Below are positions 16,142 through 30,429 of a stretch of 32,042 nucleotides of DNA, in pieces. This stretch comes from a virus. The translations under genes and the position numbers were made by a program. Where the stretch lies: positions 1-32,042 of IMG/VR virus record IMGVR_UViG_3300025704_000076; one strand, given 5' to 3'. Under the pieces are notes generated by a model. The model saw only the letters and a list, made by a program, of their open reading frames with translations, had not been told where the DNA came from and searched no databases. Each line of letters opens with the position of its first letter. Position 1 is the stretch's first letter.

Positions 16142-16252
16142 ATGAAGATAGGTCAAACAATATGGAGGGCCGGCTTCGCGCTGGTCTTTGTATTCTTGGG
16201 GGTGACTGCTTGTATAGCAGGTATTGACATCCTAATATCAATAGGAGTGTAG
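16142..16252 (+). CDS. Membrane microprotein, 36 aa
   Basis: ATG 16142 follows GGAGTCTAGT, a start region nearly repeated before the next two genes (GGAGTGTAGT, GAGGTGTAGT). The product is MKIGQTIWRAG followed by one hydrophobic span (FALVFVFLGVTACIAGIDIL) and ISIGV. VTAC resembles a lipobox, but almost nothing follows the cysteine, so a plain membrane peptide is more likely. It ends 1 nt before the exported-protein gene. Confidence 0.6.
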   Translation: MKIGQTIWRAGFALVFVFLGVTACIAGIDILISIGV

Positions 16253-16253
16253 T

Positions 16254-16703
16254 ATGAATATTGCTAGTACGTTATGTGCAGTAGGGCTATCATTGATCTT
16301 ATCTGGGGGTGCGTTCAGCGCCTCTATGTATGAAGAGAAAGATATTGTACTGTCTTGGCAGGCACCTACCTACAATGAAGACGGAACACCTCTTGTCCTT
16401 AGCGACATCTTAGAGTACGAGCTTGAGGCTCTGCTCACAGATGCGTGTGAGGACGGGGAGTGGCTCTCTTGTGAACAGATCTACTCATGGATACCAGAGT
16501 CTATGATCCTAGTACGAGGGACGTACTACTACGTGTATGAAGTGTACTACGTAGTAATTGATTCTCAGGAAGAGGCCATGACCTTTTATGATGTACCCAA
16601 CTTTGACTGGGTGTTGTCTATGAGAACAATTGCTACATCTGGGCTTGAGTCTGAACGATCTGGCTACGTAGTGTTACCTAAAGAATTCTTTTTAATTGAA
16701 TAG
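16254..16703 (+). CDS. Exported fibronectin type III-like protein, 149 aa
   Basis: A signal peptide is visible: hydrophobic core at residues 4-18 (ASTLCAVGLSLILSG), then small residues AFSA with likely cleavage near 23. The mature part reads as one FnIII domain: 'IVLSWQAPTYNEDGTPL' with the core Trp at 35, 'LEYELEALL' near 53, and the typical last strand 'VLSMRTIATSGLESERSGYV'. C65 and C73 could form a disulfide in an insert. Probably periplasmic. Having an exported adhesion-type domain between reductase and ClpX-like genes, away from the virion genes, is unusual; blocking superinfection or altering the envelope is a guess. Confidence 0.75.
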   Translation: MNIASTLCAVGLSLILSGGAFSASMYEEKDIVLSWQAPTYNEDGTPLVLSDILEYELEALLTDACEDGEWLSCEQIYSWIPESMILVRGTYYYVYEVYYVVIDSQEEAMTFYDVPNFDWVLSMRTIATSGLESERSGYVVLPKEFFLIE

Positions 16704-16712
16704 AGGTGTAGT

Positions 16713-17903
16713 ATGGGTGATGACGACAAGAAGGGGACTGTTAGAATGAAACCTATGACTGATGAAGAGATGAGACAACTGCTCAAGTACATGGGGGATG
16801 GTGATGATGAAGGCATGGATGCTTTCTTTGAGAACCTGCTTATTGAGGACGCAATCATGGAAGAATATTACATGAATGAGCCTCGCCCTCCTAAACCTAA
16901 GCCCAAAGCATTGGCCCCACCTAAGCCATTGCCTAAGCCCCATGAGATTATGGAGCAGCTTAATGAGTACATCATTGATCAAGATGATGCTAAGAAAGTA
17001 TTGTCTGTAGCTATCTACAATCACATGAAGAGAGCTAAAGATCCTGAGAACATGTATCTTAGGAAGTCTAACATCATGTTGATAGGCTCTACAGGTACAG
17101 GTAAGACGCTGTTTGCTCAGACCATAGCCAAGGCTGTTGACATACCATTAGCTATTGCTGATGCTACGTCACTGACGGAGGCAGGGTATGTTGGTGATGA
17201 CGTTGAAACAATACTTGAAAGACTTCTTGATGAGTGTGATCATAATGTTAAGAAGGCAGAGCGAGGTATCATCTACATCGATGAGATCGATAAGGTGTGT
17301 GCCAGAGCTGACTCAGGTGGTAAGCGTGACATATCAGGGGCAGGGGTGCAACATGCACTACTCAAACTAATAGAGGGTACGATTGCTACTGTTAAGATTG
17401 GATCAGGTCACAACCAGACGAAGGTTAAGGTTGATACATCTAACATCTTGTTCATTGTAGGGGGTGCGTTCAGTGGTATAGATAAGATAGCAAGTGCAAG
17501 GCTGAACGGGAAGGGTAACTCAATAGGCTTTGGTGCTGATGTAACAAGTGTTGATGACGACAGACAAACACCAATGTCTGATACATCTCTTGAAGATCTT
17601 AAATCATATGGCATGATACCTGAGCTACTAGGTAGGATACCTGTGTTAGCTAAGCTCAATCCATTAGATGTTAATGCGTTAAAGAGGATCTTGACTGAGC
17701 CTAAGAACGCTATCGTTAAACACTATGAGGAGTTGTTTGCTTTAGATGGCACGTCTCTGAGAATATCAGATGAAGCACTAACTAAGATAGCTGAAGAAGC
17801 TATTGAGAATGGAACCGGAGCTAGGGGATTACAATCTATAATGGAACGTGACCTACTAGATTATATGTTTGACGCTGAAGAGAATGTGGAGATAGACTTA
17901 TGA
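16713..17903 (+). CDS. ClpX-like AAA+ ATPase without the usual N-terminal zinc domain, 396 aa
   Basis: A phage-encoded unfoldase related to host ClpX. Walker A GSTGTGKT (125-132), pore loop GYVG (158-161), Walker B IIYIDEIDK (186-194), 'VDTSNILFIVGGAF' (240-253), the IGF loop for docking ClpP (IGF 271-273), arginine-finger region PELLGRIP (303-310) and sensor 2 GTGARG (367-372) are all present. The zinc domain that host ClpX uses for adaptors is replaced by ~75 residues: an acidic segment with Met, then a Pro/Lys stretch (RPPKPKPKALAPPKPLPKP). The basic RKH pore residues of host ClpX are not evident. It may form altered complexes with host ClpP and retarget proteolysis. ATG 16713 follows GAGGTG. 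Confidence 0.92.
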   Translation: MGDDDKKGTVRMKPMTDEEMRQLLKYMGDGDDEGMDAFFENLLIEDAIMEEYYMNEPRPPKPKPKALAPPKPLPKPHEIMEQLNEYIIDQDDAKKVLSVAIYNHMKRAKDPENMYLRKSNIMLIGSTGTGKTLFAQTIAKAVDIPLAIADATSLTEAGYVGDDVETILERLLDECDHNVKKAERGIIYIDEIDKVCARADSGGKRDISGAGVQHALLKLIEGTIATVKIGSGHNQTKVKVDTSNILFIVGGAFSGIDKIASARLNGKGNSIGFGADVTSVDDDRQTPMSDTSLEDLKSYGMIPELLGRIPVLAKLNPLDVNALKRILTEPKNAIVKHYEELFALDGTSLRISDEALTKIAEEAIENGTGARGLQSIMERDLLDYMFDAEENVEIDL

Positions 17904-18091
17904 TTACAATACAGCATGTACAAGATGAAGATATGAAACCGTATGGCAACGTGTCTACTGTTACGTTTGAGATTGATGACAGTCAGTCTACTATAGATGA
18001 TCTACTTCAAGCCTTCGATTACTTTATAAAAGCTATCGGGTATCACCCCGAAGGATGCTTGGAGTATGTTGAGGAGGAGGAGTTAGTATGA
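17900..18091 (+). CDS. Small acidic protein, 63 aa, unknown
   Basis: ATG 17900 overlaps the ClpX-like stop by ATGA. Strand-helix layout: 'ITIQHVQDEDMKPYG', 'VSTVTFEIDD', a helix 'TIDDLLQAFDYFIKAIGY', then HPEGCLEYVEEEELV. The pattern recalls small phage proteins of unknown role that follow metabolic genes. It may be co-translated with the ATPase, so a partner role is possible. Confidence 0.65.
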   Translation: MITIQHVQDEDMKPYGNVSTVTFEIDDSQSTIDDLLQAFDYFIKAIGYHPEGCLEYVEEEELV

Positions 18092-18246
18092 TAACAAGTG
18101 AGACATTCACCACGTACCAACAGGTGATGGAGTACCTGATCCAGACTGAGCCGGATCAGTTCTCTGTTGCGTGTCATGAGCAGGAGGATGGGAGCCAAGT
18201 CTGGTTCTTATCCACACCTGATGGAGAGGAGAAGGCTGTATATTAA
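18088..18246 (+). CDS. Small acidic protein, 52 aa, unknown
   Basis: This is the last gene of the rightward operon. ATG 18088 overlaps the previous stop by ATGA after GGAGGAGGAG. The product (MITSETFTTYQQVMEYLIQT...) has a helix then two strands (FSVACHEQED, SQVWFLSTPDGE). A 7-bp inverted repeat (18136-18142/18153-18159) lies inside it. Its TAA shares the TTAA 18243-18246 with the stop codon of the opposing gene. Confidence 0.6.
   Translation: MITSETFTTYQQVMEYLIQTEPDQFSVACHEQEDGSQVWFLSTPDGEEKAVY
18136..18159 (+). repeat. 7-bp inverted repeat near the convergence point
   Basis: CTGATCC (18136-18142) and GGATCAG (18153-18159) form a perfect stem with a 10-nt loop, followed by TTCTCTGTT. It is inside a coding region and lacks a true T run, so at best a weak terminator for the rightward operon. 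Confidence 0.4.
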
Positions 18247-18443
18247 TCTTCTTCTTCGTCCTCGAACATCATCCCTATCTTCGCAGTTTCTAACATACCC
18301 ACCACCAAGGTTGGGGGGAGTACGTCGAGAGCATCATCAATAGCTGATTCAAGCTGTTCCATGAACGCCTCGACTGCTTCATCCCAGTCCACTTCTTCTT
18401 GTCTCGCCTTCTGCTTATCACTAAAACTTGTATCAAGACTCAT
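18243..18443 (-). CDS. Small acidic protein, 66 aa, unknown
   Basis: This is the last gene of the leftward virion/lysis operon. ATG 18443 follows GGAAGAG. The product is acidic and helical (DWDEAVEAFMEQLESAIDDA), with a short hydrophobic part (LPPTLVVGMLETAKIGMMF) and an acidic tail EDEEED. It is not a convincing membrane span. Being next to two membrane proteins and the lysozyme suggests a late role, but no family is recognised. Confidence 0.6.
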   Translation of the reverse strand: MSLDTSFSDKQKARQEEVDWDEAVEAFMEQLESAIDDALDVLPPTLVVGMLETAKIGMMFEDEEED

Positions 18444-24600: not shown

Positions 24601-26504
24601 AATGAAGATGCTACATTACTCTTCGCTAATGAAGGATCACTTGTTAATGTACCGGCATCGGACAAAGTATAATCAAACTCAAACTCAGATGCTTTACCAT
24701 CATTAGTTCTCGCAGTAACTTTGAATCCTTTATCTGTAGTCGCTGTAACTTCTACACTATCAACCACCTTACCTGAATTAGTAAGACGTTGTTTCATTTT
24801 CTCGGTTGCTTTGTTACGAGCTACTAGCATTTCTTCAGGAGACAGTGCATCTATCGATTCCCGACCTGCTAGTGCAGCAGCTCTTTGCATTGGTGCTCTG
24901 ACAGTGGCTTCAATAGTTTCAACCAACGCTTTAGGCATACCGAATGCTTCAGGACTATCCATCAATTTAGGATCGCCTGCTATTTCAATGATGTCTTCTC
25001 TAGCAGGTCTTGCTGCACTGTTAGCATCTACAACAGATGCATCTAAAGCGTCTACCTCTGATTGCTTAACAACACGAGATACCTTTGACATCTCTTCATT
25101 CATTAAATTATCGAACTGTGTCTTCAGCTTAGTGGGGATTATACCCTGCTGTAATCTTGAGATGTCAGCATACGCAGCTTGTGAGTCCACATTACGGGCT
25201 ACCGTAGCATTTACTTCATCTAGCTGTGCTTGTAATCGTGCTATGTTTTCTTTTATGACAGACTTCTTAGCAACACCTGTCTTAGCCTGCTTCTTAGTAA
25301 CCTTACCAAGGCTTTCAGTTGCTACTTTAATATCATGTTCTAAATTTCTTTGTCTACCTTTCAGCTTACGAGATTCTCCTCGGCTCAGCTTGTTACCAGC
25401 AGTAGGAAGAAGATTTTCTACTAAGTGACTGATTACACTCTTACGTGCTTCCTGTACATCAGAAGCAATGTCATCCATAGCTCCATTTAATACAGGTGTG
25501 CCTTCCATACGTGTTGGGTTAGCAGTAGAGGCAGCATCAACCTTGTTCAGATCGATTGTTTGACCCAGCTCTTCAGCACTATCTCCACCAGACATTGCTG
25601 TTTCTGCACCAGCTCTCTCTGGATTATCTAAGTCCTTTAATTCTTTAACAGCAGATCTACTTTTAGCTACATTCTTACCTAGTTTGACAAGACTGCCTGC
25701 AATAGGACCAATATCAAGAGCAAGAACAGAGAAATCCATTGTGCCTTTGACATACATATCTTCGATGACATCATCTGAGTAGTACATCTCAACAAGAGAT
25801 CGTGCAACAAAAGGGTTCTCATCAGCAGCCGCTATGATAGCAGGCATTCTAGTTTCTAATACAACCTTCTGCTCTTCAGGATCCAGTGTCTGGAAGAATG
25901 CCATTTCATCAAGCATACCATTCCAATCAGTGCCTATCAACTTAGCATAGTCATTCATATCCTTGAGTTCATCAGGCGCAAGCATGTCTGCTAAGAAATT
26001 ACCAGCAGTCTCCAACATGTTATTGTCTTCAAAGTTCTCTTCCATCTGGTCTATGATGAAAGACTTAGTAGCTACACCACGTTGGCGAAAGTTATCAAGA
26101 GTCTCACCAGCAAAGATCTCACTGTACATCGTGTTGATACCATCATCATCAAGAATAGACTCTTCTATTAAAGAATCTACTGCGATAGTGTCATGGATAG
26201 ACTGTTGAACTTCAGGGTTTAGATCAGATGCGTTGTCAAAGATATACTCAGCACGTTCTCTGTTCTTCTTAACTAAATACTCATGCTTCAAAGCCTCTTC
26301 AGCATCTTTAGGATTAACACCTAGCTTGAGAGAGGAGTAAGCATCATTGAAAGACTCACCTACCTCTGTATCCTGTACTGTAGCTTTTAAACGAGCAATA
26401 CGGGCAGCATCCTTTCTCATCTTTCTGTCAGATGAAACAATACCTCGGATGTCGAACATCCCTTCTGTACCTTCCGCGCCACCTTGATCAAAAATGTTAG
26501 ACAT
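21657..26504 (-). CDS. Giant internal virion (ejection) protein, gp16-like by position, 1615 aa
   Basis: The largest gene in the window. The product is mainly helical with acidic N-terminal and mixed central parts and some hydrophobic segments (SVLALDIGPIAGSLV near 280; FIIYGSVGVPIAEDLVAAAS around 1315). This fits a protein that sits inside the capsid and enters the cell envelope with the DNA, as T7 gp16 (1318 aa) does. No lytic transglycosylase motif was seen at the N-terminus, unlike T7 gp16; the separate GH24 gene may take that job. ATG 26504 follows AGGAA. It ends in a TAATG overlap. Confidence 0.75.
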   Translation of the reverse strand: MSNIFDQGGAEGTEGMFDIRGIVSSDRKMRKDAARIARLKATVQDTEVGESFNDAYSSLKLGVNPKDAEEALKHEYLVKKNRERAEYIFDNASDLNPEVQQSIHDTIAVDSLIEESILDDDGINTMYSEIFAGETLDNFRQRGVATKSFIIDQMEENFEDNNMLETAGNFLADMLAPDELKDMNDYAKLIGTDWNGMLDEMAFFQTLDPEEQKVVLETRMPAIIAAADENPFVARSLVEMYYSDDVIEDMYVKGTMDFSVLALDIGPIAGSLVKLGKNVAKSRSAVKELKDLDNPERAGAETAMSGGDSAEELGQTIDLNKVDAASTANPTRMEGTPVLNGAMDDIASDVQEARKSVISHLVENLLPTAGNKLSRGESRKLKGRQRNLEHDIKVATESLGKVTKKQAKTGVAKKSVIKENIARLQAQLDEVNATVARNVDSQAAYADISRLQQGIIPTKLKTQFDNLMNEEMSKVSRVVKQSEVDALDASVVDANSAARPAREDIIEIAGDPKLMDSPEAFGMPKALVETIEATVRAPMQRAAALAGRESIDALSPEEMLVARNKATEKMKQRLTNSGKVVDSVEVTATTDKGFKVTARTNDGKASEFEFDYTLSDAGTLTSDPSLAKSNVASSLKSIFSPDVIWREMLGGFIKNITFAGQQSAKLANSLSKRYIDIEKGLSKTARIEVDTLLQAGDEAGTVFTYQELKAGTVELHVGAQGVKKGYSDEVIEGYFKKRAFFDQLHGFRNDMMRGQLEFMGFKNVKYTDKGGVAANLIGKTYDNLQGIRTQLDEATVFVPSNLEGSTVRFVEKNKHVMDKLIEAGYKPVKLMEPIRFKDGKGKATWAMVRDEQVGNLPKKVLNYSAGYTPRIYRPGYFYVKNMDSASQETLYAFKSKAEAQAYATKTMTEEGSEYKNLAVREDREFSDLEKLTNSSDMFGGLYTSARKSQNLMVKTADGDIRPERLNGANATQRYIQGISDIMPINTYRMSMVEQWMNTVEQIAKAEGREGFGVGGRSLDSPLDLSPESLATMNDSREYLKKVLKIPSDDESMFADFVASVGRGMERNWGEKGGKANEWILNNLHSKNPLRALKGATFNLHLGWFNVRQLWVQAQNASLALSMHPIHGAKAVAKMLPMRAAILSDNPDMWRSIARATPGLEEESFVKEIQLFKDSGIMDAIVRTADFDANVSGIGMSSMNGLRKASKAGRIFYEEGELASRIVAWDVARSNLKEAGEEITTKSLTDETIRMHMNLQAENSAVWQNNVLGVPTQFVQVFAKFAENLLPKTMGGTGKWTAKEKASALAGQFIIYGSVGVPIAEDLVAAASEMAGLGSASAQEENPMLVEGLQEGLWGMFFEAFGVQNNFSESGNLLAGIDDNIAATIIGAFYDHFSGNPVDTNAEISKVALGAGGNSIMRGKDAAINMYEAAKNIMTHPSAATVGHELIDVIDGLASMTSTWSNARKAYYAEYYGMGLRSKRGTVMMTNEELGANWQTSMARAFGFETDKETALWKAYDYNTENKNEMRAVKDDLQHIYNQFMITGNVELYRKQRAAIMSPYDNTEAGTKIMKNFNKSVLDGKSAFSREASAFTKDYLGNGGVMPLSTGTLLQNNEDK

Positions 26505-26965: not shown

Positions 26966-27417
26966 TAGATTATACCCTTCTGATAAGATGTCTCGACATG
27001 TCTATACCCCATTCTCTTGTACACACTTTCTATCTGTTCTGGCATAGAGCTTTGCATTGAGACCATGTTCCAATAGGAGCAACCTAGTTCTTTAGCTCCC
27101 TCCTCCAAGGCTTTTAATAACTCCAAGCCCTCTCTGCTTTTTCTGTGCTCAGGATCTACCCACCATGCTATCTCAGAGCCTGAATAGGTACTCTTACTTC
27201 CAAGCAGAGGTGCAGTAGCTCCTGCTGTGAAGCCTACGACCTCTCCATCTACTTCAGAAACAAACAGTAAACCTTGTTGGTAAGCAATGTCCATGTACAT
27301 AATTGCAGAACCATCTTCATATGGTATTCCTTCTTTATGATAAACAGTCTCTTCCCAAAATCTCTTAGCATGTTTCTCTATAGCTGGGTAATCTTCTTTG
27401 GTTGCATCTCTAATCAT
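26965..27417 (-). CDS. GNAT-fold acetyltransferase-like protein (T7 gp13 position), 150 aa
   Basis: GNAT fold: 'MIRDATKEDYPAIEKHAKRF' (strand 1/helix 1), 'GLLFVSEVDGEVVGFTAG', 'SEIAWWVDPEHRKSREGLEL' (the acetyl-CoA loop region, with H-R-K-S-R-E-G rather than a full Q/RxxGxG/A), then 'MVSMQSSMPEQIESVYKRMG' and 'YRHVETSYQK'. T7 gp13, a virion assembly protein placed between gp12 and gp14, belongs to a family I recall being grouped with acetyltransferase folds. Here the gene holds the same slot, so it may be the gp13 counterpart, with or without enzyme activity. It overlaps the oxygenase by 8 nt. Confidence 0.82.
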   Translation of the reverse strand: MIRDATKEDYPAIEKHAKRFWEETVYHKEGIPYEDGSAIMYMDIAYQQGLLFVSEVDGEVVGFTAGATAPLLGSKSTYSGSEIAWWVDPEHRKSREGLELLKALEEGAKELGCSYWNMVSMQSSMPEQIESVYKRMGYRHVETSYQKGII

Positions 27418-27955
27418 AGAAACAAGTTAGGACTAATCGCCCATCCTCCGCTGTTTTGCCAAAACCATTAACAGGCTCTGCCCTGTGCATTAGTGTAGAA
27501 GGGAAACTTACAGCTCTGTTTGGTACAAGATCAAACATGTGTGTAACTTCCCAAGCGTCATAGATATTGTAATCTCTTTGCCAGATAGCTAACTCTTCTT
27601 CTGTCTCAGGTTGTTTATAAAGACCTGTTTCTTTGTGTCGAACAAGGCTTGTTCCACCCGGCCCCTCACATAAATAGATAAGAAGAGTATTATGTGCCAT
27701 TGAAGCATCGTTATGTGCTTGGTGAGGTGCCTCCACTCCTTCAGGAGACAGCCTCAAGAACATAAACCCACCGTCTGTAAGATATTCTACTTCATCTCTT
27801 GCTGGTATATCAGTATTGATATAAGGATACAGTACATTGTCCACAGGATTAACTTCACCTGCATAAGACAATCCAGTTACATGCTTCCTTACATCAGAGT
27901 AGTCGAGAAAGAAATCATCTACGACTATAATGCCTTCCTCTAACTCTTTTATCAT
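27410..27955 (-). CDS. 2-oxoglutarate/Fe(II)-dependent oxygenase-like protein, 181 aa
   Basis: The double-stranded beta-helix iron site is visible: H81-x-D83 (AHND), distal H157 (LMHRAEP) and 2OG-binding R173 (GRLVLTCFYD), with 'LIYLCEGPGGTSLVRHKETG' and 'NRAVSFPSTLMHRAEPV' as typical strands. ATG 27955 is preferred: it overlaps the gp12-like stop by ATGA and has GGAG upstream; an ATG at 28003 would add 16 residues inside that gene. Substrate unknown: protein hydroxylation of virion or host targets, or a nucleic acid, are options. An enzyme gene between the tail tube and internal protein genes suggests a virion-linked role. Confidence 0.82.
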   Translation of the reverse strand: MIKELEEGIIVVDDFFLDYSDVRKHVTGLSYAGEVNPVDNVLYPYINTDIPARDEVEYLTDGGFMFLRLSPEGVEAPHQAHNDASMAHNTLLIYLCEGPGGTSLVRHKETGLYKQPETEEELAIWQRDYNIYDAWEVTHMFDLVPNRAVSFPSTLMHRAEPVNGFGKTAEDGRLVLTCFYD

Positions 27956-30429
27956 ACCGTTGTTTCTCCGTGTATCGGCATACCCCAGCCTAAGATCTGA
28001 CAATCTTTAGCTGGTGATGTTTCAAACTTAAAGGCTACAGCTCTGCCTCTTCCTCTCACCTTAGTCTTAGATGTTATAACCTCGTAGCCATAATCAAACT
28101 CATCATCTACATCTTGAGGTATAAAGTTTCTAGGTAATCGATACCCTTCAAAAGGTCTACTCCATTTACCACTAGATGAACTGCTTGCAAAATCCCACCG
28201 AGCTGTTACAGAACAACTTGAAGGATTTATAGCCTCTAATTCACCATCGATTTCAACGAATCCTGATTCTGATCTATTAAAGTGCATAGACAAATACGGG
28301 ATTTGCTTCTCTCTCTGTGTATCACCACCAAGTTCTGCGCCTGTTGTCAAGTATGCAGCGGAATCTACCTCACCCCAGTCCTTAAAGTCAAGGCCACCAT
28401 ACAGTCCAAAAGATAACTCATAGTTTCCACCAGAAGCAGAAGGTGTCATCATTAAATACTTAGTTACTCCAGCACTTCGTCCCTTGGTAGGGACTGTGAC
28501 AACAACATCTTCTCCATTAACTACTACTTGTTCTCCATCCACAACAACAGACTGTACTTCATTTACTGTTACGAAGTTCTCTGTCTCCATGTAGGCGGCA
28601 ATCGTTGTTCCTTCTGACGAATCCCCTATCTTTCTTGGATAGAATGATTGCAACACTGTGTCTAATACCAACTCTTTGTTGTAAGAGTGCTTAAAGTTTA
28701 CACCATTGTAGTCGTCACTGTCGTTATACATCCAAGTTATCTTACGATTTACTGCGTCGAAGCGGCCTTTAGCTACATTCTTACTGACAGCAGGAATAGC
28801 GTTATAGAAAGTTTGAATAGTTCGCTCTGATATATTCTGTGCAGCCATCTTACCACTGATATTGTCAGATACTAAAGCATATACACCACCCTCACTCCAG
28901 TAGTACACTACATCCTCTGCAACAATAACACTAGAAGGGCTTTCACAGCCTATGTTTGTAATCTGGCTTATGCTGAAATCATCTGCACGAAACACACCAT
29001 CAGGTCCAGTGATTTCCCATATACCATTCTTAGCTATAACAACTAAGGATGCACGAGCCACTACTAGCTTAATAATCTGAGAAGCCTCTGCGATCTTTAA
29101 GAAACCACCATCAGTTGCTAACAACCCAAGAGGATCTTCCTCGGTAGGGTCTGCATTCTGGTAACATTTCTCAAAGTCTTTAAAGTTCTCAACACTCTTT
29201 GAGAAAAACAAACAGCCAGTGTAGTCTGGACTAATATCATCAGGATCATTTATCCGACTCTCTATTCCAGAGTAGAATATCCTATTAGCATATGTTGCAA
29301 CAACAGATATATTACTAAGCTCCTCGTCCAGAGGAAGGTCCAAGATCTTTGTTTGCTCTTCCCTAGATTGTCCTCTTTTAAAAGCATCAATAATGTATCT
29401 GCCTTTAGGAGCAGCCGTTGTTGGTGGTCCTTGTATATTTAATAAACTGGTCTTGAAGTAAGGGTTTCCATCAGAGTCTGTAGAGTTGCCTATATATCTT
29501 ATATCAGAGTTTGATGGATAACCTGTTGAAGATTGAGCTGTGTATACTACCCTCGTTCCATCATCGATAGGTAATCCATGCCTAGATGATATTTTCTCAA
29601 TTTCTTTTATTCTACGGACAACGCCTCCAAAACCACCCGATCCTTTAATGGTGAGTTCTCCGTTTTTGTAGTTCTTAGGGTACAACTCCTGAAGCGTGAT
29701 ATTTCGTGCTTGCCTTTGGTAGCTTTTCCAAACACCGCTGGTAGCATTACCCTGCCCATTAGTTGCTCCGACCCATCCTTGGTTTTGTAGGTTGTACTTG
29801 TGATCGTTCTCCAAGATTACAGGTCTTTCGTCCACAGGAAGTCCGTCATCTGGCCCCCATAGATCCCTCACCCTTAATAAAATAGGATCAGCTCTAAGAA
29901 TTCTATCTCCAGTTCCTACTACCTCTCGTGTGTACTCTATGTAAAGAGGGTGGTCCATTTCTGTACTAGCAATGACCAATACACCACCGAGAGATGTAAA
30001 AGATACAGGCTCGTTTCCTGATATGACATTCGGAAGTACGTTGCCATCTAGTAATAGAGGCTGTGCAACACCGAACTCATCTTTGTTTAGCATAGCAGTA
30101 GATAATGACTCAGCAGATAGGTCTGTAAACCATAAAGCATTTCCGACCTGAACTACACCTAGTGATATGGTTGGATCGTTGTCCACATTGGTCCACTTGT
30201 AAGAGCCAATAGCGTGGTTGGACGAAGCGTTAGCATCTCTAAGGGTATCTATCCTTGTACCAGTAGGCTCTTCAATCATACCAAACCTGCGCTGAATACT
30301 CCCATCCCTGTTCAGCTCAAAGTTACTTATCTCTTTGGCAGCGTTTGGCGGGAACGTCAAAGCGGTGGTCTCTGTGATGAGTCCACCTGTAAAGTTAGTC
30401 TTTTCTAAACTTGTTTTTGCTGTAGCCAT
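27952..30429 (-). CDS. Tail tubular protein B (T7 gp12-like nozzle), 825 aa
   Basis: Forms the lower tail tube. The opening 'NFTGGLITETTALTFPPNAA' and 'EISNFELNRDGSIQRRFGMI' is the usual N-terminal pattern of gp12-like proteins, and the rest is beta-rich ('ASLVVIAKNGIWEITGPDGV', 'VYYWSEGGVYAL', 'VNRKITWMYND'). Length is near T7 gp12 (794 aa). A short valine repeat (VVVDGEQVVVNGEDVVV) lies around 28500-28555. ATG 30429 is chosen (MATAKTSLEK); a GTG at 30447 would add six residues. It overlaps the 65-aa gene by 35 nt. Confidence 0.85.
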   Translation of the reverse strand: MATAKTSLEKTNFTGGLITETTALTFPPNAAKEISNFELNRDGSIQRRFGMIEEPTGTRIDTLRDANASSNHAIGSYKWTNVDNDPTISLGVVQVGNALWFTDLSAESLSTAMLNKDEFGVAQPLLLDGNVLPNVISGNEPVSFTSLGGVLVIASTEMDHPLYIEYTREVVGTGDRILRADPILLRVRDLWGPDDGLPVDERPVILENDHKYNLQNQGWVGATNGQGNATSGVWKSYQRQARNITLQELYPKNYKNGELTIKGSGGFGGVVRRIKEIEKISSRHGLPIDDGTRVVYTAQSSTGYPSNSDIRYIGNSTDSDGNPYFKTSLLNIQGPPTTAAPKGRYIIDAFKRGQSREEQTKILDLPLDEELSNISVVATYANRIFYSGIESRINDPDDISPDYTGCLFFSKSVENFKDFEKCYQNADPTEEDPLGLLATDGGFLKIAEASQIIKLVVARASLVVIAKNGIWEITGPDGVFRADDFSISQITNIGCESPSSVIVAEDVVYYWSEGGVYALVSDNISGKMAAQNISERTIQTFYNAIPAVSKNVAKGRFDAVNRKITWMYNDSDDYNGVNFKHSYNKELVLDTVLQSFYPRKIGDSSEGTTIAAYMETENFVTVNEVQSVVVDGEQVVVNGEDVVVTVPTKGRSAGVTKYLMMTPSASGGNYELSFGLYGGLDFKDWGEVDSAAYLTTGAELGGDTQREKQIPYLSMHFNRSESGFVEIDGELEAINPSSCSVTARWDFASSSSSGKWSRPFEGYRLPRNFIPQDVDDEFDYGYEVITSKTKVRGRGRAVAFKFETSPAKDCQILGWGMPIHGETTV

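Follow-up and report, generated by a model that had tools for sequence, protein, structure and literature searches.

The ClpX-like gene at positions 16713-17903 of the window, that is, of the whole stretch of DNA analysed, raises the question of which protease a protein encoded by a small phage would serve and which substrates it would select. The IMG/VR virus record that makes up the window is a fragment of 32,042 bases, and the genome is incomplete. It carries a podovirus gene set, comprising genes for a sigma-like factor, a primase-helicase, a family A DNA polymerase, exonucleases, and HNH endonucleases, and further encodes a B12-dependent ribonucleotide reductase; the opposite strand encodes lysozyme, an internal virion protein, and tail tube proteins. 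Zobellviridae phages sampled from oysters have a DNA polymerase sharing 54% identity with that of the window, and for Vibrio phages the figure is 48%. Judged by its genes, the virus is a relative of the Zobellviridae, and a podovirus.

The gene encodes a protein having the motor elements of ClpX, at the following positions:

16713..17903, plus strand: gene for a ClpX-lineage AAA+ unfoldase of 396 amino acids, with an ATG start (from the open reading frame, profiles, tree, and model)
17085..17108, plus strand: Walker A, GSTGTGKT, residues 125-132 (from sequence and alignment)
17184..17195, plus strand: pore-1 loop, GYVG, residues 158-161, in which the equivalents of E. coli Y153 and V154 are kept (from alignment; function, PMC7652416)
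17268..17291, plus strand: Walker B, IIYIDEID, residues 186-193 (from sequence and alignment)
17634..17636, plus strand: arginine finger, R308, corresponding to E. coli R307 (from alignment)
17817..17825, plus strand: sensor 2, GAR, residues 369-371, corresponding to E. coli R370 (from sequence and alignment)

A plausible ribosome-binding site, GAGGTG, is present upstream of the open reading frame (ORF). The 396-residue protein exceeds the cut-offs of both ClpX profiles (PRK05342, the NCBIfam ClpX equivalog, 444 bits versus 359; TIGR00382 clpX, 408 bits versus 371), falls in a phage ClpX clade in the ClpX tree, and has E. coli ClpX chains as its best relatives of solved structure (E = 2e-102). 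Assignment to HslU is not supported: the NCBIfam HslU profile yields 187 bits versus a cut-off of 362, and the intermediate (insertion) domain is absent from the alignment. The core is about 50-56% identical to bacterial ClpX. Walker A, Walker B, GYVG, the arginine finger, and sensor 2 are all intact and invariant, and the near-complete ClpX core proposed in a preliminary description of this DNA is thereby upheld. The C-terminus ends early, so that the strand PLLIYGK, present in E. coli ClpX, is missing. In a structure model built from 66 sequences, with the N-terminal columns informed by the clade alone, the core matches chains of ClpXP cryo-EM structures with E-values as low as 5e-36, and the target-normalised TM-scores against ClpX chains are mostly 0.75-0.86. 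We file the protein as a ClpX-lineage variant that probably works like ClpX, and not as canonical ClpX, because two hallmark features that we tested for, the zinc domain and the ssrA-reading elements, are missing.

A tree of 114 ClpX sequences groups the clade with the viral sequences L195 and L193, and not with bacteria (SH-aLRT 97-99); identity to any bacterial ClpX found is about 55%. About a dozen related contigs have kept the gene, with dN/dS values of 0.12-0.16 in the core (all pairs tested) and 0.18-0.48 in the N-terminal region. By these measures the core is under purifying selection and the ancestry of the gene is phage-only. Loss of the zinc domain and of the RKH loop, described below, might speak for a recently acquired host clpX copy in decay, an origin that the preliminary description had also raised; we reject this origin, which is scarcely credible, because of the phage-only clade and the low core dN/dS (about 0.14), alongside the distance from bacterial ClpX and ATPase residues that are all intact. 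Among 52 records tested, mostly tail-gene relatives, ClpX is present in four, all of them members of the clade; because the other 48 records, many of them contigs of 36-52 kb, are without ClpX, clpX is an accessory gene of one lineage.

Two further observations were made. Between the window and L008, L011, and L012, dS is 0.7-1.1 in the N-terminal 70 codons and about 0.2 in the core, a three- to fivefold higher N-terminal value, as if recombination within the clade had exchanged the core later than the N-terminus. Short matches on contigs of 2-6 kb labelled Staphylococcus, Listeria, or Escherichia phage (53% identity) were set aside as probable carry-over from bacteria.

In E. coli, the zinc domain of ClpX is the binding site of the adaptors SspB and RssB and of trigger factor (PMC7804408). 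The zinc-binding domain (PF06689) has no match in the clade, yet matches 22 of 24 other ClpX-bearing viral records. The first Cys of the 396-residue protein is residue 175, and the protein therefore contains no zinc domain. The N-terminal region instead comprises two parts:

16713..16880, plus strand: acidic N-terminal segment, residues 1-56, found in the clade only, with predicted helices at residues 17-29, 32-42, and 45-52
16881..16940, plus strand: Pro/Lys-rich linker, residues 57-76, low-confidence in the model and probably flexible

Residues 1-56 include 17 D/E (pI 4.1), and residues 57-76 include 10 P and 6 K/R, a composition that had been read correctly from the sequence at the outset. 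The pattern of the acidic segment is conserved within the clade, with helices predicted at moderate confidence. A search of related phages for the same segment, proposed in the preliminary description, recovers it within the clade and, in the viral scan, nowhere beyond it; L018 was rejected as a carrier, its match covering the start of the core only. The segment has no match among known families and folds (the model of the segment is a weak one, with a pLDDT of 63). The stretch 'DEEMRQLL...DEGMDAFFENLL' can be aligned by eye with the helices of the zinc domain, and one MAFFT alignment places it there too; when profiles of the segment and of zinc domains are compared, the probability is about 1%. 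On the sequence evidence, the segment may be new, or it may be a zinc domain decayed beyond recognition. The adaptor domain had been described as swapped: the zinc domain is indeed absent, but exchange for another known domain finds no family or fold match. Because the zinc domain is gone, the protein would not be expected to respond to host adaptors (SspB and RssB in E. coli) or to zinc-domain-dependent substrates.

The second specificity element, the set of residues that reads the ssrA tag, is also altered. In E. coli ClpX, the tag is read by six residues: Y153, V154, T199, V202, R228, and H230 (PMC7652416). All six are invariant across 80 bacterial ClpX. In the clade, only the two pore-1 residues (Y and V) are identical; the others are substituted (T199K, V202I) or lost (R228, H230). 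The changes lie in two loops:

17322..17342, plus strand: pore-2 region, KRDISGA, residues 204-210, with T199K, V202I, and E205A relative to E. coli ClpX (from alignment)
17391..17435, plus strand: shortened RKH loop, residues 227-241, with no RKH motif (from alignment)

The RKH loop, which had been reported as not evident, is 14 residues long in the clade versus 17 in 80 of 80 bacterial ClpX, three residues short, and the RKH motif is missing from all eight distinct clade members. With three of the six contact residues substituted or lost, and a conservative change at a fourth, poor reading of ssrA tags is expected. Degradation of ssrA substrates is not seen with human ClpX, in which positions 199 and 230 are both Leu (PMC7652416). 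Position 205 is E in all 165 other sequences (all 80 bacterial and all 85 other phage ClpX) and A in all clade members, and the substitution at this otherwise invariant position could have altered the motor.

The loop through which ClpX docks onto ClpP is retained:

17523..17543, plus strand: IGFGADV, residues 271-277, containing the equivalents of E. coli I268, F270, and V274 (from alignment; function, PMC7112951)

In E. coli ClpX, these three residues pack into ClpP pockets and are needed for ClpP binding (PMC7112951). The equivalents in the window are I271, F273, and V277, the third position being L in half of the clade. The IGF loop is intact at residues 271-273, exactly where it had been placed, and its contact residues are kept in an otherwise unconserved loop. 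Specifically, comparison of the loops of the window, L195, and L193 (phage ClpX of about 55% identity) over 30 comparable positions reveals only five identical positions (I, G, F, A, and V), and each of the three ClpP-pocket residues is among them (hypergeometric P = 0.0025). This pattern suggests that ClpP docking is under selection, and is the best sequence evidence available for it, not proof of binding. The motif alone is not proof of docking because nearly every phage ClpX retains a motif of the IGF type (G in 85 of 85, F or Y in 85 of 85; counts are from alignment, regular-expression matching having missed some motifs, such as that of L108). On one side, the IGF motif is flanked by 8 residues versus 6-7 in bacteria, one to two longer; in E. 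coli, the length of the loop affects ClpP affinity (PMC7112951). The loop is a low-confidence region of the structure model.

A protein that keeps the docking residues and has lost the host substrate-reading parts could act as a poison, occupying ClpP or entering host ClpX hexamers, the mixing that the preliminary description had raised, and chiefly shutting down host ClpXP. We consider such a role quite unlikely: a pure competitor needs no intact ATPase, yet Walker A, Walker B, the arginine finger, sensor 2, and pore-1 are invariant, and the purifying selection on the core is strong.

If the docking loop is functional, the protein needs a ClpP. Searches with PF00574 (ClpP) found no match in the clade contigs or in the near relatives searched, including the terminase-to-capsid/terminase-to-tail segment, which agrees with and extends the initial remark that no ClpP gene is seen nearby. 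Because no ClpP was found in the clade contigs or in the relative's segment, the partner is likelier to be host ClpP, although the record is a fragment. A phage-encoded ClpP-like peptidase located outside the window is a very unlikely partner, even though phage ClpP genes do occur: the Zobellviridae relative PQ867851.1 (L015) has a ClpP-like gene at 25935-26489, directly upstream of ribonucleotide reductase alpha; a tubA-bearing relative record (G036) has a second ClpP-like gene; clpP and clpX are neighbours in Bacillus phage G; and PF00574 is present in 27 of 50 records of a ClpX-selected set. Besides the absence of PF00574 from the clade and from close relatives, both ClpP-bearing relatives are without ClpX.

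With respect to gene position, the ClpP-like gene is upstream of the reductase in L015 versus clpX downstream of it in the window lineage, and neither was found with both Clp halves. No close relatives of the PQ867851 ClpP-like protein were found in IMG/VR.

In the window, clpX lies at the end of the replication/nucleotide-metabolism block, after the ribonucleotide reductase gene. The gene order (reductase, clpX, a 63-residue ORF, then convergent late genes) is common to most relatives; L006 and L007 have no reductase at the clpX locus. The ORF that follows clpX is:

17900..18091, plus strand: ORF of 63 amino acids overlapping the clpX stop codon (ATGA), kept in most relatives and absent in L008 and L009

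Its product is a possible translationally coupled partner of the ClpX-like protein.

ClpX works alone in remodelling MuA transposase, and the phage protein could act in ClpP-independent remodelling of a phage replication or virion complex, the IGF loop being ancestral baggage or of minor importance. The position of clpX at the end of the replication/nucleotide-metabolism block and the lack of a ClpP found in the clade are consistent with such a role, and a role of jumbo-phage ClpX in virion assembly or protein translocation has been suggested (PMC7824862). We nevertheless regard ClpP-independent remodelling as unlikely, since it leaves unaccounted for the selective retention of three ClpP-contact residues in a free-running loop among phages of about 55% identity.

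Several neighbouring features are of separate interest. At 16142-16252 (plus strand), below the 60-residue listing cut-off, is a 36-residue ORF with a predicted membrane stretch (MKIGQTIWRAGFALVFVFLGVTACIAGIDILISIGV), which precedes clpX in near-unchanged sequence in several relatives. At 16254-16703 (plus strand), between the reductase gene and clpX, is a gene for a 149-residue protein with a signal-peptide-like start and no family match, which is found in some relatives and is absent from L005, L011, and L012. In L006 and L007, a homologue of the minus-strand ORF at 18243-18443 of the window lies 3′ of clpX on the opposite strand, a local inversion at the convergent junction. At 27410-28003 (minus strand), a match to DUF6445 (Pfam PF20043) is found beside a GNAT acetyltransferase gene in the tail gene block, an unusual location for this domain.

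Comparison with known systems defines what is new. The protein resembles bacterial ClpX (E. coli) in its AAA+ core, Walker A and B, GYVG, arginine finger, sensor 2, and IGF loop, and differs in lacking the zinc domain and RKH motif, in carrying T199K/V202I and E205A, and in having a shorter C-terminus and an acidic N-terminus. ClpX and ClpP have been described in jumbo phages (PMC7824862; PMC6102473). Like the ClpX of Bacillus phage G (gp258), Agrobacterium phage Atu_ph07, and Lak phages, the protein is phage-encoded and has an intact motor and an IGF-type loop; unlike it, those proteins keep the zinc domain, as do most phage ClpX, and are encoded by genomes about ten times larger, and in phage G, unlike in the window lineage, clpP and clpX are adjacent. 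Closest in the tree are L195 and L271 (podovirus-like) and L193 and L194 (a 70.9-kb contig), which likewise have an altered RKH loop and keep IGFxAxV. L195 shares the loss of the zinc domain and has an N-terminus different from that of the window protein, whereas L193 retains the zinc domain; the L271 copy lies before sigma factor and DNA polymerase genes.

L195 and L271 have in common a zinc-domain-less ClpX whose DNA is 99.5% identical between them. After the pentapeptide-repeat genes, L195 contains a T7-type RNA polymerase gene and L271 the sigma factor and DNA polymerase genes, a divergence that may reflect recombination or repeat-driven misassembly.

Laboratory ClpX-deltaN, an AAA+ core without the zinc domain, still binds ClpP (PMC7112951). 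The phage protein is likewise an AAA+ core without the zinc domain. The RKH loop is present in ClpX-deltaN, which degrades ssrA substrates; the phage protein, by contrast, has lost ssrA-reading residues and has a new N-terminus. What is new is that the phage is a small podovirus and that both specificity elements have been lost while the ClpP-docking loop is kept. We found no paper on a podovirus-encoded ClpX in the open-access literature, absence from which is not proof of novelty.

We propose that the protein may well be an active hexameric ClpX-type unfoldase that docks onto ClpP, most likely that of the host, and feeds it a substrate set unlike that of host ClpX. In particular, the protein would form an active hexamer, a natural counterpart of ClpX-deltaN; the retained IGF loop would dock the hexamer onto ClpP; the altered pore-2 and RKH-equivalent loops would pick targets of their own; and the acidic N-terminal segment, joined to the core by a probably flexible linker, would serve as a built-in tether, possibly helping to pick targets. 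The preliminary description had suggested that the phage alters the targets of ClpP: the kept motor and docking loop and the lost adaptor and ssrA elements fit this suggestion, and the change of targets itself is what we infer. More tentative, and rather doubtful, is the further proposal that an ssrA-blind, adaptor-blind ClpX commandeers host ClpP with the N-terminal segment as a built-in adaptor, redirecting host proteolysis in infection.

Inhibition or exploitation of host proteases by phages is known. If the proposal is true, a compact phage carrying the motor and the ClpP plug only would amount to an experiment of nature in how ClpP can be reprogrammed. With all sequence-readable substrate-selecting elements changed, it would become testable which parts of ClpX choose substrates. 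The system could uncover a means of takeover that leaves it to the phage whether host or defence proteins are degraded or spared.
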